In this document: positions 22,920 to 54,409 of the stretch, piece by piece
Layout: each line of letters opens with the position of its first letter
Position numbering within the stretch: position 1 is the stretch's first letter
From: Paragyromitra xinjiangensis
Lineage: Eukaryota > Ascomycota > Pezizomycetes > Pezizales > Discinaceae
Direction: 5' to 3'
Assembly: GCA_038503065.1 (NCBI GenBank)
Contig: JBCAMK010000014.1
Span: 992,001-1,056,000 of the forward strand
Length of the DNA stretch: 64,000 nt
Made by a program: the position numbers and the translations under genes
Notes under the pieces: generated by a model
Told to the model about the DNA's origin: nothing
What the model saw: only the letters and a program-made list of their open reading frames with translations
Databases searched by the model: none

Positions 22920-24478
22920 TGATTATTTATTTATTTATTATTCATACTCGCATGCATCCGAAACGGATATGGCGTACAGCAGAAGAAAACCCAACAGGAA
23001 CATAAAAGAAAACAAAACAAAACTAACTAATCCTCCGCCAGTTCCAACCCAGCCTCTTCTAGGCTTGTCGTTAATGAATGTGTTAATACCTCGATCTAGT
23101 GACTCCCTCTCACAGTGTCAAGACTACCCTGGGCATTCTTCTCTCACCATCACATGTTGTGTGCCTATAGCACTCCCTCCACTAAGCCCAAAGGCCCATG
23201 AGGGCTGGATAAATCAATACAGGTAGGGGGAAACTTTAAAGAACCATGCGATCCTGATGTTCGCTGGCCTTAAGTCTAGCTTCAGTGAGTTTGAGGCAAC
23301 CAGAAAAGTTACCGCGATGCTGTTCGTTACAGTTCTTGCAACGGATAATGGTGTGGAGGCAAGGAGCTCCCTTGATGGTGCAAGAGGAGGTTGCGCAGGA
23401 GTGGGAGGATGCGGTATGAGGCCCAGCACAGATGTTGCAGTAAGGCGTTTTGCTGGTACAGCGTTGTTGTGGATGGCCAAAAGCCAGACAGGTAGTGCAT
23501 TGGGTATCTGGTCCGAAGCGAAGGTATTTGGTGACTTTGTGGCGAAGTCCAAACAGTGATAGCCCTCTCTCAAGGGCAGTGGTGGCAGGTTGTTTCCCCA
23601 CAATGGTCAAGACCATGGAGGAAGCCTGCTTTCCCTCTCTCTGCTCAGGCCTGGTGAGCCAGCGAGGGTCGCGGAGTAGGGTGGTGCCTGGGTTGAACTG
23701 CTCAACCTCAGACCTGATCTGCTGGAATCCCTCTTTGCCAGAGGGAATGGAGGTAGGGACATTGTGCACAACAACTTGGGTAAGGATGGCTTCCTTTTCC
23801 ATGCTGGTGGCGTTGGGGATGGTATTGCGAACTACTTCTTCAAGCTTTTGTCTCTGCTTGAGAAGGGAGTCGGAGGTGGTGGAGGTGACAGCAATGAGCT
23901 GAACATGGTGAGCTGGTGTGAATCGCACCTCTGCAATCAATGGCCTTTCCAGGGCAGCATTGACTGCATTGCGAATGAGGAGTGGGGTGATGTCATCAGG
24001 AATGGGTAGACCATTCCTGGTGATGATTAGGGTACGGTCGCGTTTAGGGGGGTTTGCTGGTTGTTTGGTAGGCTTGGAGGCCTTGCTGGCGGGTCTGGGA
24101 GCCTTTTTAGAGGCAACCTGAGCCCAGGAGGTGGTGGCTGGCGGAGGAGCAGCTGCTGGAGGTAGAGGGAGGTTGGCAGAGGTCAGAATGGTTGTAAGAG
24201 TCCGTTTCTGTTCCAAGTCTGCTACCTTGGAGGTGAGGGTGGCCACCTTTTCCACTAGAGCTGGGTCATTGTGGAAGGTAGGGGCTGGTGGGGGTGTGAG
24301 GATAGCTTTTTCAAGCTGCTTGACGCGTTTGGTGAGTGCTTTGATGAGCCTGTTCTGCTCATCCATCACTGTGAAGAGGGAAGGGTTGTAGTTCTCCCCA
24401 GTGCCAATGGCACCAAGGCGATCTAGGTTGCTGTTGGAGTCGTCCATCTGGATGACTGGAGGTAGGGTATCCCACTTA
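22920..24478 (-). mobile_element. ORF1-only LINE derivative Am1, 5'-truncated, minus strand
   Basis: Family-A mini element in reverse orientation. Its tail is TAAATAAATAAATAA-like at 22920-22940. Next come the terminal hairpin ATCCG-TTT-CGGAT and the GTGCTATAGGCAC hairpin (23161-23173 on the plus strand). ORF1 is 24460-23236. Relative to the full copy at 25653, it starts near residue 108 (LPPVIQMDD), so it is 5'-truncated. No ORF2 lies between ORF1 and the tail, the same arrangement as Am2-Am4. The junction with A1 near 24478-24490 is not resolved, and I find no clear target duplication. Confidence 0.8.
23236..24478 (-). CDS. ORF1 (gag-like zinc-knuckle protein) of Am1, N-terminally truncated
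   Basis: A nucleic-acid-binding ORF1 protein of a LINE-type element. What remains includes a coiled-coil-prone segment (VEKVATLTSKVADLEQKR), an Ala/Pro linker and the conserved core (RTLIITRNGLPIPDDITPLL, AEVRFTPAHHVQLIAVTSTT, LLRDPRWLTRPEQREGKQAS). Three C-terminal CCHC-type knuckles follow: CTTCLAFGHPQQRC, CNICAGPHTASSHSC and CKNCNEQHRGNFSGC. The frame is open to its stop. The first ~107 residues are missing, and the sequence upstream of LPPVIQ belongs to the junction. Confidence 0.78.
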
Positions 24479-25202
24479 GCTAGAGCGACAACCATTCTAC
24501 CAGGACGAATTTTTGAAAATAACTCCACAACCAACAGAGATATCATCAAACCGACTTCATATTCGGAATCAGCGCCCCCTTTTACCCCCTTCTACACCTC
24601 CTGGGAAATCCATCTCTTCTATTGCAGAAGTTGTTGTGATTTTCCCCTTCATTTCCCCTCTTTGGGGCTCACCCCACCAAAAAACCCGCCGAGCCCCCCC
24701 TCAAAATCGTCGCCAGTCAACCAGTTCTTGTCCGATTGACTTGAAACTTGCACATCCACGCCGCCTACATATTACGGCCCAGGATTTTTAGTTTCAGCCA
24801 AATCGGCCCACAGGCGCCCGAGTAGTACTCATTTTATCGCCCAAAATCGCCAGAAATCTCGGAATATTGCAATTCTGACTGACAGCACATCACCTGCTAC
24901 CTTCTGGAACATTCCATCGGTGGAACCCAATCAGCCTCCGGTCTTCAACGTCCAATCAACTTTTGTCTCGGCAATTTATTTTTAGTATCCATTACACGAA
25001 AATTTCCGAAAAATTTCCGGAACCATGTCAGCCCACGGGGATGAAATGCAAGACGATACGGAACTTCCCATCGTACCTCCATCTTCACCTCCCTCCAGCC
25101 CTACCATGACGGCCACCAACCGATTCCTGAACGTCAGCCAGCATGCTCCTGACATCATGAGCAGCGACCCTATTTCCTCCACCACCAAACCTCTCCCGGC
25201 AC

Positions 25203-27422
25203 ACAAGAGCTGAACACCGACAACAATAACGCCAAAGTGACTTTTTGGTCACAACTCCACCAATTCTACTCCGATTAACGAGATTCTTGAAGATTCGGAA
25301 TCAGCTCGCTGCCCCCGTTCGATCCTGCTATTGTACGCCTGGATCCGTCCAGTTTTGCAAAAGTTGTTGTCGAATTCGCTTATTTACCCCTCACTTCCAA
25401 AAACCTCACCAAATCTTGAGATTCTGCAGCTTCTCATAACTCCACCAGTTTTCGTCCGATTAGCTCGACCCCGGGCTTTTTGGAACCGCCTCAGCGCGCC
25501 CGTTCGATCGCCCTCTCGTTCGTTCGGATCCGACCAGAACTGCAGAAGTTCTGCTCGATTTCCCACCCCCCTCCGCCAGGGACCCCCTCCAGGGCCCAGC
25601 ACCAACCCCCCTACACACCCCACCTTTTCCTGTCGGTTCAGGATCCTTCTCTATGTCTTCCTCTTCGTCTAGAGGCAGAGGGAGAGGCAGAGGCTTCAGG
25701 TCTCCCTCTTCTGTGACCAGCTCACCCCAAAACTCGCTCCAAACGCCCTTTGGCGCCCCTACAACACCTCCAAACACCCGTTTTTCGCCTCTGCTCCATG
25801 GAGACCCAGAGCAAACACCTACACAAGCCCTGCCACTTCGCCCAGCAGTCCCCCTACCTCACTATGCCTCCCTGCCCGCCACAGAGCCCACAGAGAGTGG
25901 CTCTGTTCTCCTGGAAGAGTCTGACTCTGACATGACGGACACTGAGGGACCCCTCACCTTCTCCACCACCCTACCTCCAGTCATCCAGATGGATGATTAT
26001 AACAGCAATTTGGATCGCCTTGGTGCCATTGGTACTGGGGAGAACTACAACCCCTCCCTCTTCGCAGTGATGGATGAGCAGAACAGGCTCATCAAAGCAC
26101 TCACAAAACGCGTCAAACAGCTTGAAAAAGCCATCAATACACCCCCACCAGCCCCTACTTTCCACAATGACCCAGCTCTAGTGGAAAAGGTGGCTACCCT
26201 CACCTCCAAGGTTGCAGACCTGGAACAGAAACGGACCCTTACAACCATTCTGACCTCTGCCAACCTCCCCCTACCGCCAGCAGCTGCTCCCCCGCCAGCC
26301 ACCACCTCCTGGGCTCAGGTTGCCTCTAAAAGGGCTCCTAGACCCGCCAGCAAGGCCTCCAAGCCTACCAAACAACCAGCAAACCCCCCAAAACGCGACC
26401 GTACCCTCATCATCACCAGGAATGGTCTACCCATTCCTGATGACATCACTCCACTTCTCATTCGCAATGCAGTCAATGCTGCCCTGGAAAGGCCATTGAT
26501 TGCAGAGGTGCGATTCACACCAGCTCACCATGTGCAGCTAATTGCTGTCACCTCCACCACCTCTGACTCCCTCCTTAAGCAAAGACAGAAGCTTGAGGAA
26601 GTTGTTCGCAACACCATCCCCAATGCCAACAGCATGGAAAAGGAAGCAGTCCTGACCCAGGTTGTTGTGCACAACATTCCCACCTCCATTCCCTCTGGCG
26701 AAGAGGGCTTCCAGCAAATCAGATCTGAGGTTGAGCAGTTCAACCCAGGCACCACCCTACTCCGCGACCCCCGCTGGCTCACTAGACCTGAGCAGAGAGA
26801 GGGGAAACAGGCATCCTCCATGGTTCTTACCATTGTGGGGAAGCAGCCTGCCACCACTGCCCTTGAGAGAGGGCTCTCCATGTTTGGACTTCGTCACAAA
26901 GTCACCAAATACCTTCGCTTTGGACCAGACACCCAATGCACTACCTGCCTGGCCTTTGGCCACCCACAACAACGCTGTACCAGCAAAACACCCTTCTGCA
27001 ACATCTGTGCTGGGCCTCATACAGCATCCTCCCACTCCTGCGCAACCTCCTCTTGCACCATCAAGGGAGCTCCCTGCCTCCACACCATCATCCGTTGCAA
27101 GAACTGTAACGAACCGCATCGTGGTAACTTTTCTGGTTGCCTCAAACTCACCCAAGCCAGACTTAGTGCCAGCGAACGTCAGGATCGCATGGTAACTTAA
27201 GTTACACCCCACCCTTATTGATGTATCCAACCTTCAGGGGTCTTCGGACCTGGTGGAAGGAGTGCTATAGGCACAAAGCAAGCGATGGTAAAGGAAGAAT
27301 GCCCAGGGTAGTCTTGACACTGTGAGAGGGAGTCACTAGATCGGGGTATTAATACATTCACTGATGACGAGCCTAGAAGAGGCTGAGTTGGAACTGGTGG
27401 AGGATTAGTTAGTTTTGTTTTG

Positions 27423-27456
<34 letters not shown>

Positions 27457-27542
27457 CCTGTTGGGTTTTCTTCTGCTGTACGCCATATCCGTTTCGGATG
27501 CATGCGAGTATGAACAATAAATAAATAAATAAATAAATAAAT
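25203..27542 (+). mobile_element. ORF1-only LINE derivative Am2 (2,340 bp, near full length)
   Basis: Inserted in A1 ORF1 with a perfect 15-bp target duplication AACCTCTCCCGGCAC at 25188-25202 and 27543-27557. Layout: about 450 bp of 5' UTR, an intact 515-codon ORF1, about 340 bp of 3' UTR with a T tract at 27422-27451, and an (AAAT)n tail. There is no endonuclease or reverse transcriptase. Hairpins GTGC-TATAG-GCAC (27262-27274) and ATCCG-TTT-CGGAT (27487-27499) match those in A1. The clean 5' end and target duplication show that it transposed as an ORF1-only unit. Confidence 0.92.
25653..27200 (+). CDS. Intact ORF1 of Am2 (gag-like, 515 aa)
   Basis: Uninterrupted frame from ATG to TAA. The N-terminus is basic and low complexity ([20 protein letters not shown]), followed by a Pro/Thr-rich linker. 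A predicted coiled-coil region lies at about residues 140-205 (DEQNRLIKALTKRVKQLEKA, VEKVATLTSKVADLEQKR). The core at about 250-420 includes RTLIITRNGLPIPDDITPLL and DPRWLTRPEQREGKQASSMV. Three CCHC-type knuckles lie at about 430-500: CTTCLAFGHPQQRC, CNICAGPHTASSHSC, CKNCNEPHRGNFSGC. By LINE biology this should bind element RNA and form a ribonucleoprotein. The reading frame is conserved against the diverged Am3 copy, so selection on the protein is plausible. No ORF2 follows. Confidence 0.88.
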   Translation: MSSSSSRGRGRGRGFRSPSSVTSSPQNSLQTPFGAPTTPPNTRFSPLLHGDPEQTPTQALPLRPAVPLPHYASLPATEPTESGSVLLEESDSDMTDTEGPLTFSTTLPPVIQMDDYNSNLDRLGAIGTGENYNPSLFAVMDEQNRLIKALTKRVKQLEKAINTPPPAPTFHNDPALVEKVATLTSKVADLEQKRTLTTILTSANLPLPPAAAPPPATTSWAQVASKRAPRPASKASKPTKQPANPPKRDRTLIITRNGLPIPDDITPLLIRNAVNAALERPLIAEVRFTPAHHVQLIAVTSTTSDSLLKQRQKLEEVVRNTIPNANSMEKEAVLTQVVVHNIPTSIPSGEEGFQQIRSEVEQFNPGTTLLRDPRWLTRPEQREGKQASSMVLTIVGKQPATTALERGLSMFGLRHKVTKYLRFGPDTQCTTCLAFGHPQQRCTSKTPFCNICAGPHTASSHSCATSSCTIKGAPCLHTIIRCKNCNEPHRGNFSGCLKLTQARLSASERQDRMVT

Positions 27543-28979
27543 AACCTCTCCCGGCACCATTTGCTCGCAAGATTACACTCCCACCACCATTCTTCTCCTC
27601 AGCTGGCAACTCCCCCACACATCCTCTATCATTTAGAAACACTTTGGGAGGAATTGACCTCACCTACGAGCCAGAACCAATGACCAGGACCAGATCCGCA
27701 GCTGGCCCATCAAAGAGAACCTTTGGCAACCAACAGCAATCCGCTCCCCCTCCCAAACGCACTCCCAGCTACTTTGCACTCCCAATGAGTCAAAACGACG
27801 TCAACCAGCACCTCATGGCACAGAATGAACACCTGAACAAGGAAATCGCTGAGCTTAAGATGATGGTTAGCAACCTCACCACCCAAATCTCAACCTCCCT
27901 GGGCTCCATGAGCCACACTGTGATCGGGAAAGTGGATTCAATCCACCGCACCCTGAAAGCAACTCCTGTCGTACCAGCAATCACAGCAACAACAATCCCC
28001 ACCGCTCCCCAACAACCCAAGAAGAACAAGGGAAAGGGAAAGGCAACTGAAATCGCGCCAGCACCTCCTCCCCCTCCTCCACCTCCTGCACCAAAGACTT
28101 GGGCCACTGTGGCGAAAGATGGAAAGCCTGCAAAGGCCAACACTGACACCCCCACAACCCCAACCCCAGAACTCACCAAGAACATGATTGTCCAACGCAG
28201 TGGTGATCAGAAAGAAGAAAGCCTCAATCTCCTTGTCCTGCGCAACACCATTAACAAAGAACTCCTGACTGCCAAAGCACCAGAAAGCCTCCAGATCTCA
28301 GGAATCTCCTGGAACCTGAAAGCAAATCTCCTGCTCTACACTCGCAATGGATTCACCAGCACTGACTTTGACCTGCACAAGGCCACCATTGAGAAAGTTG
28401 TGAAGGAAAGCGATGAGAAAGCTCTCTTTCTCTCCAAACAGGAGTCCTGGCACAAGGTTGCCATTCACGGAGTCCCAATCATGGAATACCCCGACAATCG
28501 TACTGGCATGAGCGACCTGCAAAATGAACTGGAATACCAAAACAGTGATCTCAAACTGGCAGCACCTCCTCGCTACATGACCCACCCTGACAAGAGAAAT
28601 GGAAAGTCCCACAGCTCGGTGATGATTGCCATCACCAGCAAAAGCATGTACAACAAACTGATCAAAACGGAATCCTCATCTTTGGCCAAAGACACAGGAC
28701 CGGAGCCTACTTGACTGCACGCCCTGGTGACCAATGTTCTAACTGTCAAAAGTTTGGACACAAGTTCCAGAGATGCCCCTCCACCAAGCCAGCCTGTGCC
28801 TACTGTGGACACGACCATGCTACCAACAAGCACTTCTGTGGGACTTGCAGAGCCACTGACTCCTGCGCCCACATGCCTCCCAAATGCATCAACTGTGGTG
28901 GCACACATAAAGCCACTGACAGATCCTGTGTTGCACGCCCAGACCTCTCCCGAACTGAAAAAGACATCATGGTGGAACA

Positions 28980-31900
28980 ATGATTGTGCAACCAAACCCA
29001 CACAAGATCCGCCTGATGCAACACAACTGCCGAAGAAACCAAAATGTTATGTGATGCCTGCTCGACTCAGCCTCAGAAACGGCTGATATAGTTATTATTC
29101 AAGAACCCTTTGTTATGCCCGATACTTCCCCTGACGCACCACCAAACTCCTGGACATCAATATCACATGGGTCATTTGCAAGAATGATTCCAAGCTGTAT
29201 TAACCGCCCTCGAACCATGACCTTTATATCAAAATCCAACCTCTTCCTGAAATATCAGCCAAGGCCCGACATCATCAATAACGAAGATGTACAGGCCATA
29301 GAGCTGTCAACCCCCTCCATTCCTTCCTTTACCCTCCTCAACATCTACAATGAACAACCTGCAGCATCACAACGATCTCCTGACAGCCACCCGCAATACA
29401 CAGTTGAACGTGTACTTGTGGGACTAAAGCTACCAGAACGCTGTATCATGGCAGGTGACTTCAATGCCCACCATCCTCTCTGGGACTCACGAGTCCGTTC
29501 ACCAAAACGACATGAAGCTCTTCTAGCTATACTAGAAGAATTCAACTACACCCTCATTAACGAGCCTGACATTTATACCTACAACTACCCAACAGGCACT
29601 GGCAGATCCGTTTTGGATCTTGCCTTCTCCTCCTCACCGATGACAGACTTGATTATGAACTGGGCAGTCATGGAAGACCTTGCAACAGGATCCGACCATG
29701 AAGTTGTCCAGTTTGAAATTGCTTCCGACTCTTTGGAATGTGCCCCCCCACCATCAACGGAACAATTTAATTGGGCCAAGGCGGACTGGGACGGCTTCCA
29801 ACAAACTTTCACCCTTTCCTCCATCACTACTAAAGACATCTGGGAGTTCCTACACTCCCATCCAACCCATTCAAACCTAGACGAAGCAGCTCAACACCTA
29901 CGAGATTCAATCATAGCAGCTGCCAACATCCATGTACCCAAACGAAAACCATCGCCCTTCGCCAAACCTTGGTGGAATGAAGACATCAAAGAAGGACGCA
30001 GACATATGAAGACAGCCCTCAGGGACTGGAGAACAGATCAGACTCCAACCATGTGGCGAAGATTCAAAAACCTGCGAACATCCTACTTTAGACGAATCAG
30101 AACAGCAAAAAGTGAACACTGGAATACATTCCTAGAAGAAGCTCACGGAAAAGATGTCTTCACAGCAATGAGGTACACCAAGCCTCGCAGATGTGAACGC
30201 ACCCGACCCTACACAATCCCACCACCCTCCAAGAGTCCAAAACCTTTGAAGAGAAAGCCAATCTCTTCCGAGCAACTCTATTCCCTCCCCCTCCCTCAGT
30301 GGAACTTGATGAACCTGTTCCAGCAGGAAAACACAAGATCCCATGGAAAGACCTCACCAACGATGAGATTCGGAAAGCAATCATGACCTCAGCACCAAAG
30401 AAAGCCCCTGGACCTGATGGAATTGGCTTCCTATGCATTCAAAAAGCATACCAAGTTGACCCAACGCAGTTCAATTCCTTCTACAAAGCCACCATGAAAG
30501 CAGGATACCACCCAACCATATGGCGTGAAGCTACAATTGCAATCATTAGAAAGGCCAATAAACCAGACTACACGAGAGCAAAGCCTACCGACCAGTATCA
30601 CTCCTCAACTGCCTAGGCAAAGTCTCAGAAAAGATCATAGCAACCCGATTAGCATTTATGGCAGAAAGATATCACCTTCTCCATAGATGGCAAATTGGAG
30701 GTCGACCAAAAAGATCAGCTGTGGATGCTTGCATGCTTATCAGCACGCTTGCCGATGCAGCCAAAAAGAAAGGCCTAACACTCTCTGCACTGTGCATGGA
30801 CGTGAAAGGTGCATATGATTTTGTATTCAAACGACGACTGATCAAGACCATGATAGAACTGGACCTCCCACTTCCCATCTGCCGATGGGTGGACTCCTTC
30901 CTCAGCAATCGAACAGCCTGCATGGCATTCGATGGTGAAATTGAAGCCATGGCACCCATTCAAACTGGCATCCCACAAGGATCCCCCACCTCCCCTATCC
31001 TTTTCCTCCTCTACCTGGCTCCGTTGTTCAACGAGCTAGAAGAAAAATATCCTGATTCCACCTGCCCCAGCTATGTCGATGACGTGGGCCTTCTGGTTAC
31101 AGGAAAGTCTGAAGCAGAAAATTCTCGAACACTGGAAGCAATGGCACTCACCTCCTCTGAATGGGGTGAGAAAAATGCCTTGTACTTTGACAATCCAAAG
31201 ACAGAACTCACTCACTTCCACTCCCGACGAACAACTGACACCTCTGATGAAGCCAAAGTCACAATGCCTGATGGCAACGTGATTGAGGCTGCAGATGTCC
31301 AGCGATGGCTGGGTGTCTGGTTTGACCGTAAACTCACATTCAAGCATCATGTGAAGACCAAAGCTGCCTCCGCACTTCGAGCCTTCATGGCTATCTCCCG
31401 TCTCGCAAGCACAGAAAAAGGACTGAGTTACAAAGCACTCCGCCAACTCTACCAAACCTGTGTAGCCACCATCAGTGACTTCGGAGCTGAAGTATGGTGG
31501 AACGGGCAGATTGGACTCAGCAACACCATCCAGAAAGTCCAGAATCAAGCAATGCGCAAGATTGCTGGAGCCTTCAGAACTTCACCTGTCCATGCCCTGG
31601 AAGCAGAGACAGGACTCCTCCCTACCCCAATCAGATTGGACGAGTTGCAAAGGAAATATGCACTCCGAGTCCTTTCCCTACCCAACACCCATCCCATCAC
31701 CTCCCTCTGCCCTGATTCCTGGCCTTCAACCCAGGAAAACAACAACCCAGATAGCTCCAACAACACTCCATGGCACCAAACCACCACCTCCCCCAAATAC
31801 GAAACAAGACTACATAGGATACTGGCATCTACCAACAAATGGGTCCAGCCACAATCAGAGATTGAATGTGTAGACAATCTGGCATGCCCACCATGGCACC

Positions 31901-32982
31901 AAAACACCATAGACATCTATATTGACCCTGCAGACAAAGACGCCGCAGCAGAAAACCATCGGAACCACACAGCTGGAGACAGTACTAGGACTGATCGCTT
32001 AGTCTTCTACACTGATGGCTCCCTCCTGGAAGGCAAAACAGGAGCTGGAGTTGCTGGTTTCCGTAGAGGTCACTCTGTGGTCAACAAATCCTACCACCTC
32101 GGCAAAGAAAATGAAGTCTTTGACGCAGAACTTTATGGTATTGCAAAAGCCACTAAGCATGCAATCCTACAAGTACAGCGATCACCTCACCTGACAAATG
32201 ATGTCTACATCTACTGCGACAACCATGCAGCAGTACAACGAATGACAACACCCCTCCCTATGCCAGGCCAGCACCTGGTCATTGAAGCCCGCAACAACTT
32301 GCTTCAACTCGAAGACAATGGCATCAAAACCCATGTTTATTGGGTACCAGGACATGTCAACGTTGCCGGCAACGAGCTAGCTGATAAGCTCGCCAAGATA
32401 GGAGCCCAAGGAACAAGGATAGAATCAGATGTCCTCACCTCCATCACATACCTCAAGAGAAACATCAAGGAACACTCCCTGACGATATGGAAAGCCAAAT
32501 GGAAGCAGGCAAAGAAAGGCCGCAGCTACTACGGACAACCAGCACTGAAACCAAGTGCCCCGCTGAGGGGAAACATCCCCAGAAGAACAGCCTCCACCAT
32601 CACTCAAATGAGAACCGGACATGGATACACCAAATCCTACCTCGCCAGAATCCCTACCAACAACATTGAAGACACTAAATGCAAATGTGGCTTTGATAAC
32701 CAAACACCACAACACCTACTGCTAGAGTGTGGCCAGGAACCACTTCCTACCCATCGCAAAGCACTCAAAGCAGCCCTTAAACCAATGCCACTCACATGGA
32801 GAACTGCGATGCATACCAATGCTGGCCTCGCTGCCACCATTGAAACATTCCTCACACCAACCCAAATCGCTACCAGAAATTGGACCCTGGAACGACAAGA
32901 AGACAACAGGTACTCCCACCAAGGAATATACCTCTACAACGACGAAGAGGAAGAGAGCGAAGGAGAAAGAGAGAACGGCTAG
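28980..32982 (+). pseudogene. ORF2 of LINE A1 (endonuclease-RT-RNase H), one stop and two frameshifts
   Basis: Starts MIVQPNPHKIRLMQHNCRRN at 28980, with its ATG overlapping the ORF1 stop. The APE-type endonuclease follows (VIIQEPFV, GDFNAHHPLWDS, SDHEVVQFE). A TGA at 29052-29054 interrupts it. The frame shifts near 30230-30300 and again near 30580. The RT frame then carries KAPGPDGIGFL, YRPVSLLNCLGK, CMDVKGAYDFV, GIPQGSPTSPILF and the catalytic SYVDDVGLL. RNase H follows (VFYTDGSLLEGKTGAGVAGF, FDAELYGIAKA, YCDNHAAVQ, NVAGNELADKLAK), then a C-terminal CCHC-like motif (CKCGFDNQTPQHLLLEC). Catalytic residues of all three enzymes are still recognisable, so inactivation looks fairly recent. Confidence 0.85.
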
Positions 32983-33406
32983 TAAGAACGGGCTATAGGC
33001 CCAAAGCATGTGATGGTGAAGGACGATAGAAAACTGATGAATACCCTGAAAGTGGGGTGAGATGGAACATGACCGTGTGGAGGATTTCTGATGATAAAAA
33101 ACTGTTTGAGTATTTCCCTATGATTTTACCCTGTCGATTGATATTCCGTTCGTTTCTACTGTTTGGTAGAACTTTGAGATAAAAATTGTTATTTCCTCTT
33201 TTGTTATTTTCCTTTTGTTATTTTGTTTTGATTTATGTTTCTTCTGTTTTTCGCAAAGGGATATCTGATGTGGATATCTACTAATTAGTTGGTTCATGTT
33301 CGCGGAGGATTTTCCTTTGTTAGTTATTGTGCGGTCATGGGGTTTCCTTTCACTGTATGCCATATCCGTTACGGATTTATGCAATATGAGCAATAAATAA
33401 ATAATA
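32983..33406 (+). other. 3' UTR and tail of LINE A1
   Basis: The start contains the GGGC-TATAG-GCCC hairpin followed by AAAGCATGTGATGGTGAA. The same block follows ORF1 in Am2-Am4 (AAAGCA.GYG.TGGTRAA). The end contains GCCATATCCGTTACGGAT, which is the terminal hairpin, and then the AATAAATAA tail. The middle part is not conserved with the mini elements. Confidence 0.8.
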
Positions 33407-35518: not shown

Positions 35519-35780
35519 TTTCTTGGTGAACCGGGTGGGGGAAGCTTTTCTTTTGTTTCCGGTCAGTTGGAGATTATTTCTTTAAAATTTTTATTATTTT
35601 TATTATTTGTTGCGAGGAGTGTGGTTTGATTATATGTTTTGTATTTTCTTTTAAGTTTTATTAGGGGAAGTTGAGGTTGGCGGAGGTTGAGGTCATGTAT
35701 TTCATATACGAGTGCCATTCAGTAGCTAGTTAGGTTAGCGACTGTCTAAAATAAATTGAAATTGGAAATTGGAAATTGGA
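33407..35780 (+). mobile_element. Family-B LINE B1, 5'-truncated inside ORF2
   Basis: Begins directly after the A1 tail, at the RT palm region (HHTGARTGISATDSLH), and runs to the family-B 3' end. The 3' UTR (35519-35780) has the conserved end GAGTGCCATTCAGTAGCTAG, then TTAGGTTAGCGACTGTC and three GGAAATT repeats. It is followed without a gap by the 5' end of B2. No target duplication is evident. The 5' truncation is normal for LINEs. Confidence 0.85.
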
Positions 35781-37868: not shown

Positions 37869-38184
37869 CACCATCCTGCACAAGTAAAAAGATTCCTGCA
37901 AAACCACAGTTCTACGTTGCAACCGCGTTACACACTGCAAAAAGTCTTTAACTCTTTGGCTTCATTTATCACCACTTCCCCGCATTCAAACACTTTCATC
38001 AGGCGCGTCGCCCCATTTCATCCTGGATTCGCCCTCAACTCCTCCTAGGAGATCCCGCACCCCATCCCCATCCCCCATCAAGCTAGTAACCTTTGGCACC
38101 AACTTCACCCTCCCCCTCATCGGCAAGAAGTGCACCCTCTCCAACCCTTCTCCAGCACCCGCACACTCAGGATCACCCACAAAG

Positions 38185-39605
38185 ATGGCTGAATCCTCCA
38201 CTGCTCAATCCCTCTTTAACACCGGTCCCCAGGGCCTCACCACCGACTCGCAGTACCACGATGAAGCTCTAATGCACGAGCTTCCTGACGACTCCACTTC
38301 TAACTGGCTTCATGACTTTTCAGCCACTGAAGACTACATGCCCGAAATCCCCGACAATGGCAACACCGAGCAATTCACGGCACGGCTGTTGAAATCCAGC
38401 TTTGCCCGCCTCAACACCCAAACCGAGGAAAACAATACCCTCCTCCTCGCCAAAGTAGCCATGCAGGAAAATGTCATCCTCAAGCTCACGGATCAGACCA
38501 AGATCCTTCAAGAAATGGTGGGCAAACTATCCACCACGCTCACAACATGGCCGGTGTTCTTCGCAACATCGACAAAAACACCAACCAACCTGCCCACGCT
38601 TCCACAACACCCAGCAACCAACAGAAACCCCAGCGAAAACCCCACCAACAAGCTCAGAAACCCCAAACCCCCCTCCTCAACGATGGAAAACCTATGACTT
38701 ATGCGCAAGCCGCAAATGCTCCTGCTGCTCCCTTCACCAAGGTCAACAAGGGCAATAAGAAAAAGAAGGCCCTTCCCCCCAAACTTTTCCAACAGCAATT
38801 CACCACCATCAATCGTCAAATCATCCTCGAAACCTCCGCTGACGTCCCAGCTTCAATTGACAATCTTTCCCTCCTCACGGCCATCAACAAGGAACTTGCT
38901 CCCCGCAACACCTCCATTCTTATGTGCACAAAGACGGCCAGACGCAACTTCGTCCTCACCACTCGACCTGATGAATCTGCAGAACAAATCTGCCAGGCCT
39001 ATCAGAAGGAAATCGAGACAGCATGCACCCTCCTCAAAATTTCCCTCGGCGAAGCCAGACCGAATTCAAAATGGTCCAAATTCATCGTTCACGGCATCCC
39101 CACCAAGGCCACAATGGCTGAAGTAGCGGAACAAATGTCCATATCCGTTCCAACCTTCACACTCGCACAAACTCCCAGATGGCTCACTACCACTGAGGCC
39201 TGGGCCACCAAAACCCATTCTGCAATAGTCATTGCACTCCCACAAAAGTTTACAATGGAAACCCTTGGCCTATCACAAATCCCTCTTTTCAACTCCTTCT
39301 GCAGGGTACAAGAATATATTGCAGTCTCCCCCACCACACAATGCAGAAAATGCCAGGCCTATGGTCATCATCGGCAAACCTGCAAAAACAATCTTAAATG
39401 CGCAGTCTGTGCTGAGGCACATGAAACTTTCAAACACCCATGCACCACCGCTGGCTGCCCAGCTGGTGCTAAGTGCACCCACCCTCCAATCCGCTGCGCT
39501 AACTGCAATCAAGGCCACAAAGCCTATGAACGCAAAGTTTGCATCCCCTACACCAAGCTCACTGAGAGCCTCAAATCCTCCCGAATCACCACCACCAATG
39601 CTTAA
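38185..39605 (+). pseudogene. ORF1 of B3, one-base frameshift
   Basis: Begins MAESSTAQSLFNTGPQGLTT at 38185. The N-terminal part has a coiled-coil-prone stretch (NTQTEENNTLLLAKVAMQEN). Near 38543 one base is missing (compare CTCACAACATGG here with CTCAACAAAATGG in B4), and the protein continues in the next frame (MAGVLRNIDKNTNQPAHAST). The core has KPMTYAQAANAP and FIVHGIPTKATMAEVAEQMS. Three knuckles follow: CRKCQAYGHHRQTC, CAVCAEAHETFKHPC and CANCNQGHKAYERKVC. The TAA stop at 39603-39605 overlaps the ORF2 ATG as TAATG. Confidence 0.83.
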
Positions 39606-42600
39606 TGCAGCCACAACCATCCTCACTAGGCATAGCCACGGTGCAGCAGCTGAACTGCGCCAAAGGACAGGCCTCCAGCTTATCAGCAATCTTAGATTTC
39701 GACCGTTCACAACACTCTCTAATCCTCATGCTCCAGGAACCCTGGTTAGATCATGACAAAATTCCTCCAACATTGCAAAGCTCTGATGCATATTTTCCTT
39801 CTACATCATCGAAAGTAGTTATTTACATTAAGAAAAATCTAAAAAACACAAAAATAATCACCACCTTATCACCAAATTCAAACATTATCTTTCTACTCAT
39901 TAAACTTCCTCAACTTACAATGGAACTCTGCAACGTTTATATTCAACCACGACAGAGCGACAACCATCTCCCTCTCCTCACACATCATTTCCACCAAAAC
40001 ACCATACTAGCAGCAGACTTTAACTTACACCACCCATGGTGGTATGGCCCTAAAGCCGACACTCACGCTTATTTATTTTCCAAGCGCATCTCCATAACTA
40101 ATTTAATCACGGAATGGCTTGAAGGCAATAATTTCCGCCTTTTAAATAAACCGGGAACCTACACCCACTTCCCTAGAAATGGCAACCAACCTTCCATCCT
40201 TGATCTAACCCTCGTCCGAGGTTTATCTGACATCTGCGGCCCTTGGTCTGCACCTCCAATTTGCCCTCACAATTCCGATCATGTATCAATATACACCACG
40301 CTCTACATTCACCCGCCGGAATACACAAGCCGCCGCCTCTACTCTAAAGCAGATTGGCCAAAATTCCACCAAATCATCAGGGACGCAGCCATCCCTTTCA
40401 ACTACCACAACGAAACAACAACCAATCAAACCCTATCCCACATCGTTAACACTGTTAACCAAGCTGTGGAATGCGCCATCCCCTTATCAAAACCAAGGAC
40501 TTATGCCAAATCCTGGTGGACACCCAACCTCCGTAAACTAAAGAGAAAACTCGCCTGGGTGGAATCAGAAGCCAGGAAAACCAATTCTCCACCACACTTC
40601 AGAATATTAGCCAATTCTATCCGCAAGATCTATAAAACTGAAATAACCCTCGCCAAATGGGATCACTGGCACAGATCAATCAAGGATATCAGTCCCAGCT
40701 CCGCCTGGAACCTTTTAAATGGCGCTTCAGCTAGAAACAAACCCAACATCCCCCCCATCAACCAACAGGAAGACAACGAGGCAATTGGTAAAGCCTTTCG
40801 CCAAACATTCTTTCCACCACAAATCACCCCAACTCAATTTCCCCCTCACTTCCTACCCCCTCCCACTTCCGACAAAAGCCAATTTCCCCAAACCATTTCA
40901 GCTGAAGAAATTGACCACCTCCTCCACAAATCCAACATGCGGACAGCAGTCGGTCCAGATGGGTTCAATTATATCACCCTACGAGAAACAAACCGAGCCC
41001 GCCCCGCCATTTTAACCGCCCTGTTTAACAATCTTCTACACCTTGGACACATGCCTGAAATATGGAAAATCACACACTGCGTTCCCATCCCCAAATCAAA
41101 CAAAGCCGATTATTCCTCCCCCAAAAGCTACCGCCCAGTTTCCCTACTTTCCTGCCTTGGTAAACTCTTGGAGAAAATAATGGCCAAAAAACTTGAAATA
41201 TGCGCCACATTAAATGGAGCCATCCAACCTCACCACACTGGGGCCAGAACAGGAGTTTCCGCTACTGACTCCCTACACTACATTCTCACCATCACACAGA
41301 AGCAAGTACTCATCCCCACCCTCGGCAACGACAGGAAAGCCTCACGCGCACCTCTACACCCAACAATTTTAGCAACCGATATTGATGGCGCCTTCAACTG
41401 CATCTCTCACCCCCATCTTATAACAATATTAGAGCATTACACCTTCCCCACCTGGTGCATCAAATGGATGTCCAGCTTCACCACAAACCGAACTCTGGCT
41501 TTTCGCATCAATAAGGAGCTTGAAACCCCTCAACCCCTACAAGTGGGGCTCCCACGAGGCTCCCCTCTTTCTTCAATTGCCTTTGTCATTTATGCTGCCG
41601 CACCGGACCCTCCATCCAATCCCCACCCCACAGAATTTTCCACAATATACATTGACGATGACACCGCTTTACAATTAGCGAAAACACCTGCCTTTGCCAC
41701 AAAACGTTAAGCAGAAAGGCACGCAGCTAAAACCCTTCAAGCCTCCTACCTTAACATAACCTTTTCTCAACCAAAAACGGAGCTAATCCACCTCATGGCC
41801 ACAAGCACCTCTCATCCTTCCAATCAAATCATCAAGCTCTTCAACACAGACATTGCCCCTTCCCCCCACATCAAAACCTTGGGCATCCTCCTTGACCAGC
41901 AATTAAATTTCCACACCCATTGCCAACAAGCTGCCTCCCGCTTAAGAACCGCCCTATACCTTGTCAATAATCTTATCAAAGACAAAGGTCCCACTCCCAA
42001 CCTAATCCACCAGCTAACCCTAACCATCATACTCCCTGCTGCACTCTATGGCTCTGAAGTATGGTGGACAGGCACCCAAAGCATCCTTGATAGACTTTCA
42101 CCCTTCTATCACCGGGCAGCTCGACTCATCACTGGCCTTCCCAAATACACTCCGATACATAGACTTCTACCTGAGGCTGGCTTAGCCCCCCTCAACCTAT
42201 TACTTGACATGCGTACGCAAATATATGGTATTCGCCTTCTACGCATTCCAAACCATCCGTTACACAAGACCCTCCAACAATATCTCTACCGTACCAACTT
42301 CAAAGGCACCGGCTTGCAAAGAGTTGGGTCTCTCTTATCCCAGCTCCTATCGGGTGCCCCCCTCGAAGATCTCTCCCTACCCTCCCATTCCTTTCTCAAT
42401 AATGCCAACATACACATTGAAGGCACCAAACAATCAGCATCTCTCATCCACATGGACTGGCTTCATAGCCTTTCCAATGCTTGGGTACTTTACTCAGACG
42501 GCTCTAAAGCAGAAAATGGAGTCACAGCATCTGGCTGGAATATCCAATTCATACAATATGGCAACACCACTCAATCATACCAGGGCAATTGCAACCTGGG

Positions 42601-42787
42601 TCACCAATGCGAAAACGAAGACGCAGAAATCCACGGAATACAGGAAGCTCTTCAATATCTCATCCAACGTTTACCAGTTAATAACACACTAGTTTACCTA
42701 TGCATCGACAATCAGAATGCATTCCGAGCTGTCGCTGGTAACGTCACTTCTAATCGACAGTTCCTAAAATCCACCCTTGCACATATA

Positions 42788-45021
42788 ACCACTCACCAGA
42801 CCGACAACAACAACCACGAAACGACTTTTTGGTCATAACTCCACCAGTTTTACTCCGATTAACGAGATTTTTGGTTATTCGGACTCGCCTCACTGCCCCC
42901 GTTCGATCCTGCTATTGTACGTCGAGGTCGCTCTCGATTTGCAAAAGTTGTTGTCGAATTCGCTATTTTACCCCTCTTTTCCCCCCTACACCTCAAATCT
43001 TGAGATCTTGCAAGACCTCATAACTCCCCGAGTTTTTGTCCGATTAGCTCGAACCCGGGCTTTTTGGACTCCCCACACCGAGCCCGTTCGATCGCCCTCT
43101 CGTTCGTCCGGATCGGAGCAGATTTGCAGAAGTTGTTGACACTTCCTGCTCCCACCCTCCCCCACCCGCCAGGGACCCCCCCAGGGCCCCACAACAACCC
43201 CCCCATACACCCCACCTCCTCCTGTCGGTTCAGGACCCTCCTCCATGTCTTCCTCTTCGTCCAGAGGCAGAGGGAGAGGCAGAGGCTTTCAGTCTCCCTC
43301 TCCTGGCGCAATTTCGCCCTTCACCACCCCCACAACACCCACAGCACCCACCACACCCCCCAATTCGCGACTTTCTGCCCTCCACCATGGAGACCCAGAG
43401 CAGACCCCTACTCAAACCCTCCCACTGCGTCCTGCTGTTGCCCTTCAGGACTATGAGTCACTCCCACTCCCTCCAGATTCTCAAGACCATGAGATGACAG
43501 AGTCAGAGTCAGAGCATGAGAGCATGGATGACTTCGTGGCTCCCACCCTCAACACCACTATCAAGATCGCAGATGCTGTGATCCAAATCGCCAGAGACCT
43601 CCACCAGTATCGCCTCTATGTGAAGCAACTGGAGAGGGAAATCAGACGCCTCCAGAAGGCAGCCAGGAACCCCCCACCTCCCCCTACCGTTCACAACGAC
43701 CCAGCTCTTGTGGAGAAGGTAGCAACCCTCACAACCAAGGTGGCAGACTTGGAGCAGAAACGCGCCTTAACTAGCATTCTGGCCACTGCCAACCTCCCCC
43801 CACCACCAGCAGCTGCCCCAGCACCTGCACCTCACTCATGGGCTCAGGTTGCCTCCAAAAAGGCCTCCAGACCCGCCCCCAAGGCCTCCAAGGCCCCCAA
43901 ACCACCCACCAACCCTCCCAAGCGCGACCGCACCCTTATCATCACCAGGAATGGTCTACCCATTCCTGAGGATGTCACCCCACTCACCATTCGCAACACA
44001 GTCAATGCAGCCTTAGAAAGCCCCTTGATTGCAGAGGTGCGATTTACACCTGCTCACCATGTGCAGCTCATTGCTGTCACCACCACCACCTCCGACACAC
44101 TCCTCAAGCAGAGATCAAAGCTTGAGGAGATTGTGAGATCCACCATCCCCAATGCCAACAGCCTGGAGAAAGAGGTCACTCTCTTTCAGGTTGTCCTGCA
44201 CAACGTACCCACCTCCATTCCTTCTGGCGAAGAAGGATTTCAACACATCAGGTCAGAGGTTGAACAGTTCAACCCTGGCACCACCCTCATGCGCGACCCT
44301 CGCTGGCTCACCAGACCAGAGCAGAGAGAGGGCAAGCAGGCTTCTTCTATGGTTCTTACCATCCAGGGGAAACAACCTGCCACCACTGCCCTTGAGAGAG
44401 GGCTCTCCCTTTTCGGACGACGCCTCAAGGTTTCCAAATACCTTCGCTTTGGACAGGACACCCAATGCACCCACTGCCTGGCCTTTGGCCACCACCAACA
44501 GCGCTGTACCAGCAAGACCCCTATCTGTACCATCTGTGCTGGGCCTCATACAGTGTCAACACACACCTGCGGCAAACCTTCCTGCCATGTCAAAGGATCT
44601 CCCTGCCTCCACACCATCCTCCGCTGCGCTAACTGTGGCGAACAACATCGTGGTAACTCCCCTGAGTGCCTCAAACTCACAGCAGCAAGACTAGCTGCAA
44701 GCGAAAGACAGAATCGCATGCAAATCTAAGTCTCCCCCCACCCTTACGACTTCATCTCCCTTGACAGTGCTCGGATTGTTGGAGGGACGTGCTATAGGCA
44801 CAAAGCATGTGCTGGTGAAAGAAGAATGCCCAGGGTAGTCTTGTCCTGTGGGAGAGGGCACTAGATCGGGGTATTAACACATAAACTGAAGAATAGCCGT
44901 AGAGGGCTGAGTTGGACCCAGTGGGAGGAATCGGGTAGTTAGTTGCGTTTTGATTTTGTTTTCTGTTTGGTTTTTTCTATATGTATGCCATATCTGTTTC
45001 GGATTTATGCAGTATGAAATA

Positions 45022-45061
<40 letters not shown>

Positions 45062-45066
45062 AAATA
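42788..45066 (+). mobile_element. ORF1-only LINE derivative Am3 (2,279 bp, near full length)
   Basis: Inserted in B3 ORF2 with a perfect 15-bp duplication ACCCTTGCACATATA at 42773-42787 and 45067-45081. The 5' UTR (about 42788-43244) aligns with those of Am2 and Am4, with shared blocks ACGACTTTTTGGTCATAACT and CCCGTTCGATCCTGCTATTG. ORF1 is intact; about 280 bp of 3' UTR follow. Hairpins are GTGC-TATAG-GCAC (44789-44801) and ATCTG-TTT-CGGAT (44992-45004, one G-U pair). The tail is a long (AAAT)n run. Confidence 0.93.
43245..44729 (+). CDS. Intact ORF1 of Am3 (gag-like, 494 aa)
   Basis: Open from ATG to TAA. The N-terminus [20 protein letters not shown] is nearly the same as Am2, but residues ~25-130 differ strongly in sequence and length. 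A leucine-rich heptad-like helix (YVKQLEREIRRLQKAARN) replaces the corresponding Am2 helix, and the second helix VEKVATLTTKVADLEQKRAL is conserved. The C-terminal core and the knuckles are conserved: CTHCLAFGHHQQRC, CTICAGPHTVSTHTC and CANCGEQHRGNSPEC. Two diverged copies with open frames argue that ORF1 protein is still made and needed. I infer RNA binding in trans with an autonomous family-A ORF2 protein. Confidence 0.88.
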   Translation: MSSSSSRGRGRGRGFQSPSPGAISPFTTPTTPTAPTTPPNSRLSALHHGDPEQTPTQTLPLRPAVALQDYESLPLPPDSQDHEMTESESEHESMDDFVAPTLNTTIKIADAVIQIARDLHQYRLYVKQLEREIRRLQKAARNPPPPPTVHNDPALVEKVATLTTKVADLEQKRALTSILATANLPPPPAAAPAPAPHSWAQVASKKASRPAPKASKAPKPPTNPPKRDRTLIITRNGLPIPEDVTPLTIRNTVNAALESPLIAEVRFTPAHHVQLIAVTTTTSDTLLKQRSKLEEIVRSTIPNANSLEKEVTLFQVVLHNVPTSIPSGEEGFQHIRSEVEQFNPGTTLMRDPRWLTRPEQREGKQASSMVLTIQGKQPATTALERGLSLFGRRLKVSKYLRFGQDTQCTHCLAFGHHQQRCTSKTPICTICAGPHTVSTHTCGKPSCHVKGSPCLHTILRCANCGEQHRGNSPECLKLTAARLAASERQNRMQI

Positions 45067-45618: not shown

Positions 45619-45840
45619 TTACGTTGCTTCCTCATCCACACCCCTCACCATAAGAACACACGCTTTATGGGCATCGCGTCGCGGATTTACCAATCCATCC
45701 TTCACCTTTTCCCTTGCACAACTGCGCGAAGAACCCCTGAATCAACGCTAGTTGTACCCGACTGGTTGGACCACGAATACCTAAGGACCAACTCGACACA
45801 TTCCACCATTTCCAAAATCACCTGAGAAAACATCTCCACC
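45619..45840 (+). promoter_or_regulatory. Gypsy leader with putative self-priming primer-binding site
   Basis: Just 2 nt after the LTR, ACGTTGCTT (45621-45629) replaces the usual TGG-starting tRNA primer-binding site. Its reverse complement AAGCAACGT occurs in the LTR at 45387-45395, near where the transcript should begin. This matches the known self-priming arrangement of Tf1/sushi-type chromoviruses, but the match here is only 9 nt. Confidence 0.55.
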
Positions 45841-47127: not shown

Positions 47128-47160
47128 AACCAGAGTCGCTTCGTGACCCTGCTCTGGTTT
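47115..47160 (+). promoter_or_regulatory. Programmed -1 frameshift signal, gag to pol
   Basis: The heptamer T TTA AAC (47115-47121) lies in the correct gag phase, one codon before the TAA at 47125-47127. After a 5-nt spacer, AAACCAGAG (47127-47135) can pair perfectly with CTCTGGTTT (47152-47160), enclosing a 16-nt loop that itself holds GTC/GAC complementarity. Slippage puts ribosomes directly into the pol frame (FKLLKPESLRDPALV). Confidence 0.85.
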
Positions 47161-52081: not shown

Positions 52082-52165
52082 CCAAAGCTGGCCTCCTCCT
52101 CCCCACCCCCTGCGGACATATGTGTACTACCTTAGGCTGGCTTCGATTACAACCCAAAATCCTCC

Positions 52166-54409
52166 ACCGACAACAACAACCACGAAACGACTTTTTGGTC
52201 ATAACTGCACCAGTTTTACTCCGATTAACGAGATTTTTGGTTATTCGGACTCGCCTCACTGCCTCCGTTCGATCCTGCTATTGTACGTCGAGGTTGCTCT
52301 CGATTTGCAAAAGTTGTTGTCGAATTCGCTATTTTACCCCTCTTTTCCCCCCTACACCTCAAATCTTGAGATCTTGCAAGACCTCATAACTCCACGAGTT
52401 TTCGTCCGATTAGCTCGACCCCGGGCTTTTTGGACTCCCCACACCGAGCCCGTTCGATCGCCCTCTCGTTTGTCCGGATCGGAGCAGTTTTGCAGAAGTT
52501 GTTGACACTTCCTGCTCCCACCCTCCCCCACCTGCCAGGGACCCCCCCAGGGACCCACAGCAACCCCCCCATACACCCCACCTCCTCCTGTCGGTTCAGG
52601 ACCCCTCCATGTCTTCCTCCTCGTCCAGGGGAAGAGGGAGAGGCAGAGGCTATCAGTCTCCCTCTCCTGGCGGAATTTCGCCCTTTACCACCCCCACAAC
52701 ACCCACAGCACCTACAACACCCCCCAATTCGCGACTTTCTGCCCTCCACCATGGAGACCCAGAGCAGACTCCCACCCAGACTCTCCCACTGCGTCCTGCT
52801 GTTGCTCTCCAGGACTTTGAATCCCTCCCACTCCCCCCAGACTCTCAGGATCATGAGATGACTGAATCTGAGAGTGAAACAGAGGAGGAATTCACCCCCC
52901 CCCATCCTCAACACCACCCCCAAGATTGCAGATGCCGTTGTCCAACTTGCTGCAACTCTCCACGAATACCGGGCCTGCATCAAGCAGATGCTCAAAACCA
53001 TCCGCAGGCTTGAAAAAGCAGCCAGGACTCCTCCACCTCCTCCAGTCTTCCACAACGACCCTGCTCTTGTGGAAAAGATTGCAATCCTCACTGCCAAAGT
53101 AGCAGACCTGGAGCAGAAACGCGCCCTGACAACCATCTTGGCTTCTGCCTCTGCCCCAGGCCCCTCCTCACTCCCCCTACCTCCAGCAGCTGCCCCAGCA
53201 CCAGCACAACACTCTTGGGCTCAGGTTGCCTCTAAAAAGGCCTCCAGACCCGCCCCTAAGGCCTCCAAGGCCTCCAAACAACCCACAACTCCCCCCAAAT
53301 GAGACCGCACACTCATCATCACCAGGAATGGTCAACCCATTCCTGAGGATGTAACCCCACTCACCATTCGCAACGCAGTCAATGCGGCCCTAGAAAGCCC
53401 TTTGATTGCTGAGGTGCGATTTACACCTGCCCACCATGTGCAGCTCATTGCTGTCACCACCACCTCCTCCGACGCACTCCTCAAGCAGAGACAAAAATTT
53501 GAGGAGATTGTTAGATCCACCATCCCTAACGCCACCAGCTTGGAGAAAGAGGTCACTCTCTTTCAAGTTGTTCTTCATAACGTCCCCACCTCCATTCCCT
53601 CTGGCGAAGAGGGTTTCCAACAAATCAGGTCAGAGGTTGAACAGTTCAACCCTGGCACTACCCTCATGCGCGACCCTCACTGGCTCACCAGACCAGAGCA
53701 GAGAGAGGGCAAGCAGGCTTCCTCCATGGTTTTGACTATCCAAGGGAAACAACCTGCCACCACTGCCCTTCAGAGAGGCCTCTCCCTTTTTGGACGCCGC
53801 CTCAAGGTCTCCAAATACCTTCGCTTTGGACAAGACACCCAATGCACCCACTGCCTTGCCTTTGGGCACCACCAACAACGCTGTACCAGCAAGACCCCTA
53901 CTTGTACCATCTGTGCTGGACCTCATACTGCGTCAACTCATACTTGTGCCAAATCCTCTTGCTCAGTCAAAGGATCTCCTTGCCTTCACACCACCATTCG
54001 CTGCGCCAACTGTGGCGAACCACATAGAGGCAACTCCCCAGGATGCCCCAAACTTACTGCTGCCAGACTTGCTGCTAGCAAACGACAGAACCGCATGCAA
54101 CTATAAGTCTCTCCTATACCCTTACGATTTCGTTTGTCCTTTTTGGTTTTTGGATTGGAAGTGGGCTGTGCTATAGGCACAAAGCAAGCGATGGTGAATG
54201 AACAATGCCCAGGGTAGTTTTGACCTGTGGGAGAGGTCACTAGATCGAGGTATTAACTACTAAACTGACGATGAGCCGCAAAGGGCTGGGTTGGAAACGT
54301 GTGAAGGATTTTGGTTTTTGTTTTTGTTTTGTTTTGTTTTGTTGGGTTTCTTTGATTATTCGCCTTATCCTATAAGGATGCATGCGTGTATGAGCTATAA
54401 ATAAATAAT
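52166..54409 (+). mobile_element. ORF1-only LINE derivative Am4 (2,244 bp, near full length)
   Basis: Inserted in B3 ORF2 with a 14-bp duplication ACCCAAAATCCTCC (52152-52165 and 54410-54423). The 5' end ACCGACAACAACAACCACGA defines the family start well and matches Am3 inside its first 30 bp. ORF1 is broken. The 3' UTR hairpins are GTGC-TATAG-GCAC (54168-54180) and ATCCT-ATA-AGGAT (54367-54379). The second has a C-G to A-T type compensatory change relative to the other copies. The tail is short: AAATAAATAA. Confidence 0.92.
52609..54106 (+). pseudogene. ORF1 of Am4, frameshifted and with a stop
   Basis: Starts [20 protein letters not shown]. The frame is lost in a C run near 52895-52905 (CACCCCCCCC) and continues in the next frame (DAVVQLAATLHEYRACIKQM). 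A TGA at about 53300 (CCCAAATGAGAC, where Am3 has CCCAAGCGCGAC) then interrupts the protein. The remaining C-terminus (core and knuckles CTHCLAFGHHQQRC, CTICAGPHTASTHTC, CANCGEPHRGNSPGC) is open to the TAA at 54104-54106. It is closer to Am3 than to Am2. Confidence 0.85.

Follow-up and report, generated by a model that had tools for sequence, protein, structure and literature searches.

The window examined in this study, 64,000 nucleotides of contig 14 (992001-1056000) in the 48.2-Mb, 22-contig assembly of Paragyromitra xinjiangensis, contained Ty3-type elements, two families of long interspersed nuclear elements (LINE A and LINE B), and several copies of the element that is our subject (referred to as Am). 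An Am unit was approximately 2.3 kb in length and consisted of a 5' untranslated region (UTR), one open reading frame (ORF1) for a protein with an RRM-like core and zinc knuckles, a 3'UTR of approximately 300-330 nt, and an (AATA)n tail (Table 1). Am1 to Am4 were present where the original prediction, made from the letters of this window, had placed them, and each passed, as claimed, from ORF1 to a 3'UTR of approximately 300 bp and a tail without an endonuclease or reverse transcriptase (RT). The genome-wide results described below point to an ORF1-only lineage, ORF1 of which is under strong purifying selection, with LINE B as the likely donor of the ORF2 protein.

Table 1. Features of the window (positions in the window; position 1 is its first nucleotide).
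Feature	Position	Strand	Description
Am1	22922..24468	-	5'-truncated ORF1-only element; tail side against Ty3-type gag, truncated side abutting the LINE B 5' end
Am2	25203..27542	+	Complete ORF1-only element, inside ORF1 of the LINE B copy
Am2 target-site duplication, AACCTCTCCCGGCAC	25188..25202 (upstream copy); 27543-27557 (second copy)	+	Found by eye and by script (locus L001)
Am2 ORF1	25653..27200	+	515 codons, open; disordered N-terminus, helices, RRM-like core, zinc knuckles
Am2 3'UTR hairpin 1 (GUGC-UAUAG-GCAC)	27262..27274	+	LINE B version mostly GGGC/GCCC
Am2 3'-terminal two-part hairpin	27478..27511	+	Immediately ahead of the (AATA)n tail; common to LINE B
Am3	42788..45066	+	Complete ORF1-only element within LINE A ORF2; target-site duplication ACCCTTGCACATATA (by eye and by script)
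Am3 ORF1	43245..44729	+	494 codons, open
Am4	52166..54409	+	Complete-length ORF1-only unit in another LINE A unit; target-site duplication ACCCAAAATCCTCC (by eye)
Fifth Am copy	63720..64000	+	Begins at the ORF1 ATG and runs past the window end (contig 14: 1055720-1057264)
LINE B copy	24484..33405	+	ORF1 and endonuclease/RT/RNase H ORF2; split by Am2, frameshifted; ends approximate
LINE B 3'-terminal hairpin	33355..33387	+	Homologous to the Am terminal hairpin
A-mini	35780..37867	+	Second ORF1-only lineage; unit of a head-to-tail LINE A array
A-mini ORF1	36125..37444	+	439 codons; differs from the ORF1 of LINE A
LINE A copy (ORF1 and ORF2)	37868..42787	+	Comes after A-mini; interrupted by Am3

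Am2, Am3, and Am4, the boundaries of which were set by eye, were complete units with target-site duplications (TSDs) of 14-15 nt, in agreement with the claim that they had moved as units; no TSD was seen by eye for Am1, and ORF1 of Am4 was interrupted, leaving two open stretches that differed in frame. Am2 and Am3 had diverged, yet both kept approximately 500 codons open, as originally described. The LINE-A-type ORF1-only unit (A-mini) had been missed. Imperfect short tandem repeats were arrayed within the LINE A region (56116-56910), and a search of a plasmid collection gave no match.

Am was not confined to the window. The ORF1 proteins of Am2 and Am3 had at least 89 and 119 matches in the genome, respectively (overlapping sets, in which some matches were split), and a 30-nt pattern from the Am2-type 3' end, with up to two mismatches allowed, occurred 103 times in the assembly (0 for the reversed control); this copy number is far beyond chance. 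When 60 loci were read together with 1.5-kb flanks, ORF1 was followed by the Am 3'UTR in all of them, the 3'UTR being cut by other sequence in two (L030 and L035). A sample independent of the ORF was obtained with the DNA of the Am 3'UTR, for which at least 40 genome matches were found: among the 40 listed, 27 lay directly behind an ORF1 that was complete or short of up to 12 first residues and two behind a partial ORF1, and three of the remaining 11 were read, all with the same order (one complete and two 5' truncated). The order ORF1-3'UTR was consequently seen in 63 of 63 loci read (60 by protein and three by 3'UTR), and the check for a downstream ORF2 that accompanied the original prediction found none. 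The starts of 126 distinct Am ORF1 copies were furthermore compared with at least 142 places of LINE-type RT (57 of LINE B, 69 of LINE A, and 16 others), and no regular spacing of a listed RT match was found behind them; as a yardstick, 39 of 70 LINE A-type ORF1s had a listed RT within 9 kb downstream, at a median distance of 2819 bp.

TSDs were assessed genome-wide as the longest word common to both flanks (at least 10 nt), with mismatched flank pairs as the null. Such a word was found in 48 of the 60 loci versus 5 of 2351 mismatched pairs (median over all 60 loci, 14 nt), and in 52 of the 60 the element began no later than nt 15 of the 5'UTR. TSDs of variable sequence, the 3' tail, and occasional 5' truncation are the insertion hallmarks of a non-long-terminal-repeat (non-LTR) retrotransposon, and all of these were found in Am. 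The TSDs, complete 5' ends, and open frames ruled out the possibility that Am copies are decaying fragments produced by deletion in place.

Purifying selection on Am ORF1 is strong. When 54 intact ORFs were compared in 1431 pairs, mean nonsynonymous divergence (dN) divided by mean synonymous divergence (dS) gave a ratio of 0.10-0.27 in each of seven dS bins, with dS between copies reaching approximately 0.9. The ratio was 0.02-0.19 within the Am2-type and Am3-type groups, and 0.22-0.32 between their representatives, which were separated by a dS of 0.67-0.91. A codon model (23 sequences, 476 codons) gave an omega of 0.147, with a log-likelihood of -7737.8 versus -8213.3 under omega 1 and kappa 2. 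A ratio near 1, the other outcome for which the original prediction had proposed a check, was not obtained (0.147 in the codon model and 0.02-0.32 across subfamily representatives). The spacer after the ORF1 stop was similar, by eye, in 10 of 10 representatives, and the ORF1-only form is, therefore, most simply older than the subfamilies.

No credible family was found for the ORF1 proteins in a Pfam search. An AlphaFold model based on seven sequences, which was poor overall (mean pLDDT of 54.6) and usable only for residues ~247-420, predicted helices (residues 113-201) and a core of the order beta-alpha-beta-beta-alpha-beta (residues 248-330). With this model, Foldseek returned 28 matches with E <0.001, all of which were RRM proteins (best E, 8.9e-5), with low TM-scores among the matches listed (up to 0.21 by query and 0.48 by target); no match under 0.001 was found in the viral library. 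CCHC-like spacing was visible at the C-terminus, and an RRM-like core with zinc knuckles is a usual layout of LINE ORF1. The nearest ORF1s were those of LINEs in this fungus and in Discinaceae, and named protein relatives were found in Maublancomyces gigas (Pezizales), together with the JGI protein P0125.

Five copies (L045, L051-L053, and L060) looked like mosaics, with ORF1 of one subfamily and the 3'UTR or 3' hairpin of another, a pattern that template switching between co-packaged RNAs would give. At the position of the Am2 TSD (25188-25202) and at locus L051, two different Am subfamilies occupied one and the same site in LINE B ORF1, and their TSD words were near-identical (15 and 14 nt, respectively). 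On contig 10 (938197-939738), an Am ORF1 was located within an open frame of 1109 codons.

ORF2 of LINE B had the domain order endonuclease-RT-RNase H, and this element is a candidate member of the Tad-like clade of fungal LINEs. In an intact copy (L064), ORF1 had 533 amino acids and the ORF2 frame 1341 codons. When Am ORF1 was compared with the three ORF1 types of this genome, LINE B was the nearest by bit score (LINE B, 134-143; A-mini, 102-105; LINE A, 83-89), and identity was higher over the shorter A-mini match (35% versus 29-30%). A first comparison, in which the A-mini and LINE A ORF1s appeared nearer to Am, was an artefact of the frameshifted LINE B ORF1 in the window, and was reversed by bit score with the intact copy. 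The 5'UTRs of Am and LINE B were also related (scores of 36, 37, and 30; shuffled sequences averaged near 14 and reached 19 at most). On each of the 22 contigs, the tabulated Am copies were gathered in a single stretch 29-175 kb long (from rounded coordinates of a subset of the matches listed). Together these stretches amounted to 2431 kb or 5.0% of the assembly, and none of the 126 Am ORF1 starts lay more than 2.6 kb outside a stretch. LINE B RT matches were found on all 22 contigs; 40 of the 57 listed were inside Am stretches and the others no more than 47 kb from one. Of the 16 other LINE-length RT matches listed, 12 were more than 200 kb away.

The two elements also shared their 3' ends. 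All five complete LINE B 3' ends available had a two-part terminal hairpin of the Am type; the sequence behind it was (AATA)n, except in one copy, where it was A-rich. In an alignment of 19 sequences (two of LINE B), 98.4% of the cells of this hairpin were paired. Two-sided changes occurred in 2 of its 11 pairs. One pair was C-G in the Am2 type and U-A in some Am3-type copies and in LINE B; the other changed from G-C to U-A inside Am, in the Am4 type. Shifting the pairing partner abolished pairing, and the covariation score was equalled by 0 of 500 shuffles. Hairpin 1, near the start of the 3'UTR, was GUGC/GCAC in most Am copies (U-A) and GGGC/GCCC in 5 of 6 LINE B copies (G-C). In RNAalifold of the first ~150 nt of the 3'UTR, LINE B was misaligned beyond hairpin 1, and the further hairpins seen by eye are candidates. 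The possibility that Am is a satellite of LINE A was ruled out by the (GAAATTG)n tail of LINE A and its unlike 3' end, T-rich stretches apart. In LINEs of the stringent type, the ORF2 protein has been shown to recognise a 3' stem-loop strictly (PMC4176376, as far as the part consulted goes). On the basis of the shared 3' hairpin, related 5'UTRs, nearest ORF1, co-location, and this precedent, we infer that the LINE B ORF2 protein copies Am RNA, and LINE B is the likely donor of ORF2 protein to Am.

In the LINE B copies of the window (ends at 24484 and 33405) and of L064, the 5' and 3' flanks were unlike and no TSD was seen, perhaps due to exchange between copies. On contig 22 (646734-649343), two adjoining matches shared one open frame of 1382 codons, with a LINE B RT at the end and a 32%-alike RT before it; this is perhaps a chimeric LINE.

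A-mini is a second, independent ORF1-only lineage, located in mixed head-to-tail arrays with LINE A. Its ORF1 had at least 26 matches in the genome at 88-100% identity and at least 70 at 49-54%, the latter of which were taken as LINE A-type ORF1s. An RT at the spacing of LINE A was found in none of the 26 listed copies among the RT matches listed, and in 13 of these 26 the next listed ORF1 on the same strand was only 2.05-2.18 kb downstream, leaving no room for ORF2. All seven copies read were open, with an omega of 0.04-0.12 and a dS of up to 0.43 among them. The distance from LINE A ORF1 was near saturation (dS of 1.7-2.0), and the last ~110 nt and first ~120 nt of A-mini resembled LINE A (83-92%). 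At L065, two A-mini units stood head to tail between LINE A units with a dS of 0.30 from each other; the second was nearer to a copy on another contig (dS of 0.085), which speaks against simple local duplication. In the arrays of the window and L065, the LINE A tail adjoined the following 5' end directly, which suggests that elements had inserted at the edges of older copies. Copies of LINE A RT were also arranged head to tail with a period of ~5.7 kb at contig 13:934195-953277, contig 7:1624707-1638070, and contig 1:3451247-3470339.

The explanation that we consider highly probable is that Am is a lineage from which ORF2 has been lost and which has spread since, acting with its own ORF1 protein in cis and the LINE B ORF2 protein in trans. 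The loss would most simply have occurred once, prior to the split of the present subfamilies, and Am would thereafter have spread as an ORF1-only unit. Am RNA would be packaged by the Am ORF1 protein, with a preference for acting in cis, and each active copy would need an intact ORF1 because of this presumed cis packaging. The ORF2 protein of LINE B, or of a close relative, would then bind the shared 3'-terminal hairpin in trans, nick the target, and copy the RNA by target-primed reverse transcription, leaving TSDs of ~14 nt and the (AATA)n tail. A-mini, independently, probably depends on LINE A in the same way. The original prediction of an ORF1-only lineage under selection that borrows the ORF2 protein was in this sense supported, with LINE B as the likely donor from shared ends and co-location, and with the borrowing itself as a proposal.

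Several points weigh against this explanation. TSDs of 10 nt were missing from 12 of the 60 loci, and these loci were the best protein matches and were, therefore, biased to intact ORFs. The sequence upstream of 8 of the 40 listed 3'UTR matches was unread and, since the genome counts are of matches listed, a rare Am with ORF2 could escape. In 4 of the 126 Am ORF1 copies, a listed LINE RT followed on the same strand at a distance of up to 4 kb (1 of 126 for the opposite-strand control); the distances of 1.8, 2.3, 2.4, and 3.3 kb had no common spacing. In three of these (L049, L009, and L032), the Am 3'UTR and TSD stood between ORF1 and RT, and they were read as separate elements that had inserted within or next to a LINE B or LINE A; the fourth (contig 10:1010225), the RT match of which starts at query residue 310, was unread. 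For the terminal hairpin, covariation concerned only 2 of 11 pairs, with the count of doubly changed pairs equalled by 52 of 500 shuffles and that of pair types by 95 of 500, and the outer pair of hairpin 1 was broken in the intact LINE B copy. The assignment of LINE B as donor depends on the likeness of ends and on location, and Am is presumed from its DNA to be expressed and mobile.

Some of these points would also fit a different arrangement, in which a rare autonomous LINE with an Am-type ORF1 and an ORF2 is the master and Am copies are recurrent by-products of internal deletion. Selection on ORF1 would be expected in such a master, and it might be sought among the eight 3'UTR matches and the single near-RT copy left unread, the counts being of matches listed. 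However, ORF2 was present in 0 of 63 loci and no regular RT spacing was found in 126, repeated deletions would need the same breakpoint to give the similar ORF1-3'UTR spacer of 10 of 10 representatives, and subfamilies with a dS of up to about 0.9 were ORF1-only in the copies read. We regard a master LINE as improbable. A mutualism, in which the Am ORF1 protein works in trans and supplies LINE B, was also considered because Am insertions split LINE B ORF1 in L001, L051, and L055, such that some LINE B copies cannot make their own; nevertheless, LINE B retains its own ORF1 (intact in L064), and a shared trans product is not expected to maintain selection on each copy. This was judged the least probable of the explanations considered. 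Parasitism as opposed to mutualism, implied by the term "parasite" in the original prediction, is not proven.

Because there was one Am stretch per contig, these stretches are suggested to be putative centromeres. No run of four TTAGGG units was found in the whole assembly, and telomeres are either missing from it or of a different sequence. The single Am stretch per contig brings in domestication, namely, that the host selects ORF1, for example because Am/LINE arrays help to form centromeres, similar to the gag-only HeT-A at Drosophila telomeres. A stretch of this size on every contig (5.0% of the assembly for all 22 together), strong selection on ORF1, and the mixed LINE A/A-mini arrays are all consistent with it; on the other hand, selection spans many dispersed copies with TSDs, not one fixed gene, and clustering could stem from an insertion preference or survival bias. 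Domestication appears slightly less probable than a master LINE, and we retain a lineage using ORF1 in cis and a borrowed ORF2 protein in trans. A broader proposal, which is tentative and rather doubtful, is that each main LINE has its own long-lived ORF1-only satellite (LINE B-Am and LINE A-A-mini), that these form a stable two-tier community building the presumed centromeres in the way that HeT-A, TART, and TAHRE build Drosophila telomeres, and that the repeated loss of ORF2 with ORF1 kept reflects an ORF1 protein acting in cis and an ORF2 protein able to act in trans.

The cis and trans action of LINE proteins has mostly been studied in cell assays of mammalian L1. Two lineages that lost ORF2, and in which strong selection maintained ORF1 through a long divergence, represent a natural experiment pointing to ORF1 protein in cis and ORF2 protein in trans, and a fungal partner pair with a defined common 3' hairpin is open to direct tests. 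L1 is not known to carry RNase H, while the likely partner ORF2 of Am does. In the parts of the literature consulted, HAL1 is described as a non-autonomous LINE derivative that encodes the ORF1 protein alone and is said to have arisen several times; in the guinea pig, its coding capacity was kept for about 29-44 Myr, which was read as ORF1 protein in cis with ORF2 protein in trans (PMC3627910, PMC5753468). Am similarly encodes ORF1 only, with its coding capacity selectively maintained. However, HAL1 is derived from L1, whereas Am appears nearest to ORF1s from LINEs in this fungus and in Discinaceae and resembles a fungal LINE that has an RRM/zinc-knuckle ORF1 and RNase H in ORF2. Am also differs in its structured 3' end, (AATA)n tail, and occurrence in one stretch per contig. 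The HAL1 parallel drawn originally, therefore, held as a likeness and not as membership, and HeT-A, which had not been named, was equally close; Am is a member of neither group. HeT-A is described, in the part of the source consulted, as a gag-only non-LTR element located beside the gag+pol elements TART and TAHRE in head-to-tail arrays (PMC5537684). Am is also a gag-only non-LTR element; head-to-tail arrays with a gag+pol element were seen for A-mini and LINE A, and the Am copies read were interspersed insertions. HeT-A extends chromosome ends, carries a promoter in its unusually long 3'UTR, and functions in telomere upkeep, whereas Am inserts internally, with TSDs in 48 of 60 loci, and its stretches are internal.

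SINEs (short interspersed nuclear elements) are not known to encode protein. The 3' stem-loop recognised by the LINE ORF2 protein in SINE-LINE pairs of the stringent type (PMC4176376, in the part consulted) resembles the arrangement proposed here, and Am differs by bringing its own ORF1. The statement that no fungal case had been described needs qualifying because ORF1-only LINE sequences have been reported in Blumeria, in which the EKA families (Avrk1- and Avra10-like ORF1, of the LINEs Satine and Kryze) include many ORF1 copies without ORF2; none of nine Avrk1-type consensus sequences was apparently a full two-ORF LINE (the wording of the source is ambiguous), and 1 of 34 full-length fragments had a downstream RT (PMC4641428, in the part consulted). 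In contrast to Am, the Blumeria copies were read as degenerate or as co-opted effectors with sites under positive selection, the term "target site" is absent from the text of that source as available, and no analysis of trans-mobilisation was seen in the part consulted. The papers listed in searches for fungal ORF1-only LINEs showed no case besides Blumeria, which is not proof that none is in print. The repeated origin of ORF1-only LINEs was already known for HAL1; new here are two ORF1-only LINE lineages in one fungus, each with ends similar to those of a different complete LINE. These results suggest that life as an ORF1-only LINE is a stable strategy and no peculiarity of mammals or Drosophila, and that EKA and other fungal repeats with ORF1 alone merit re-examination beside HAL1, HeT-A, and Am.

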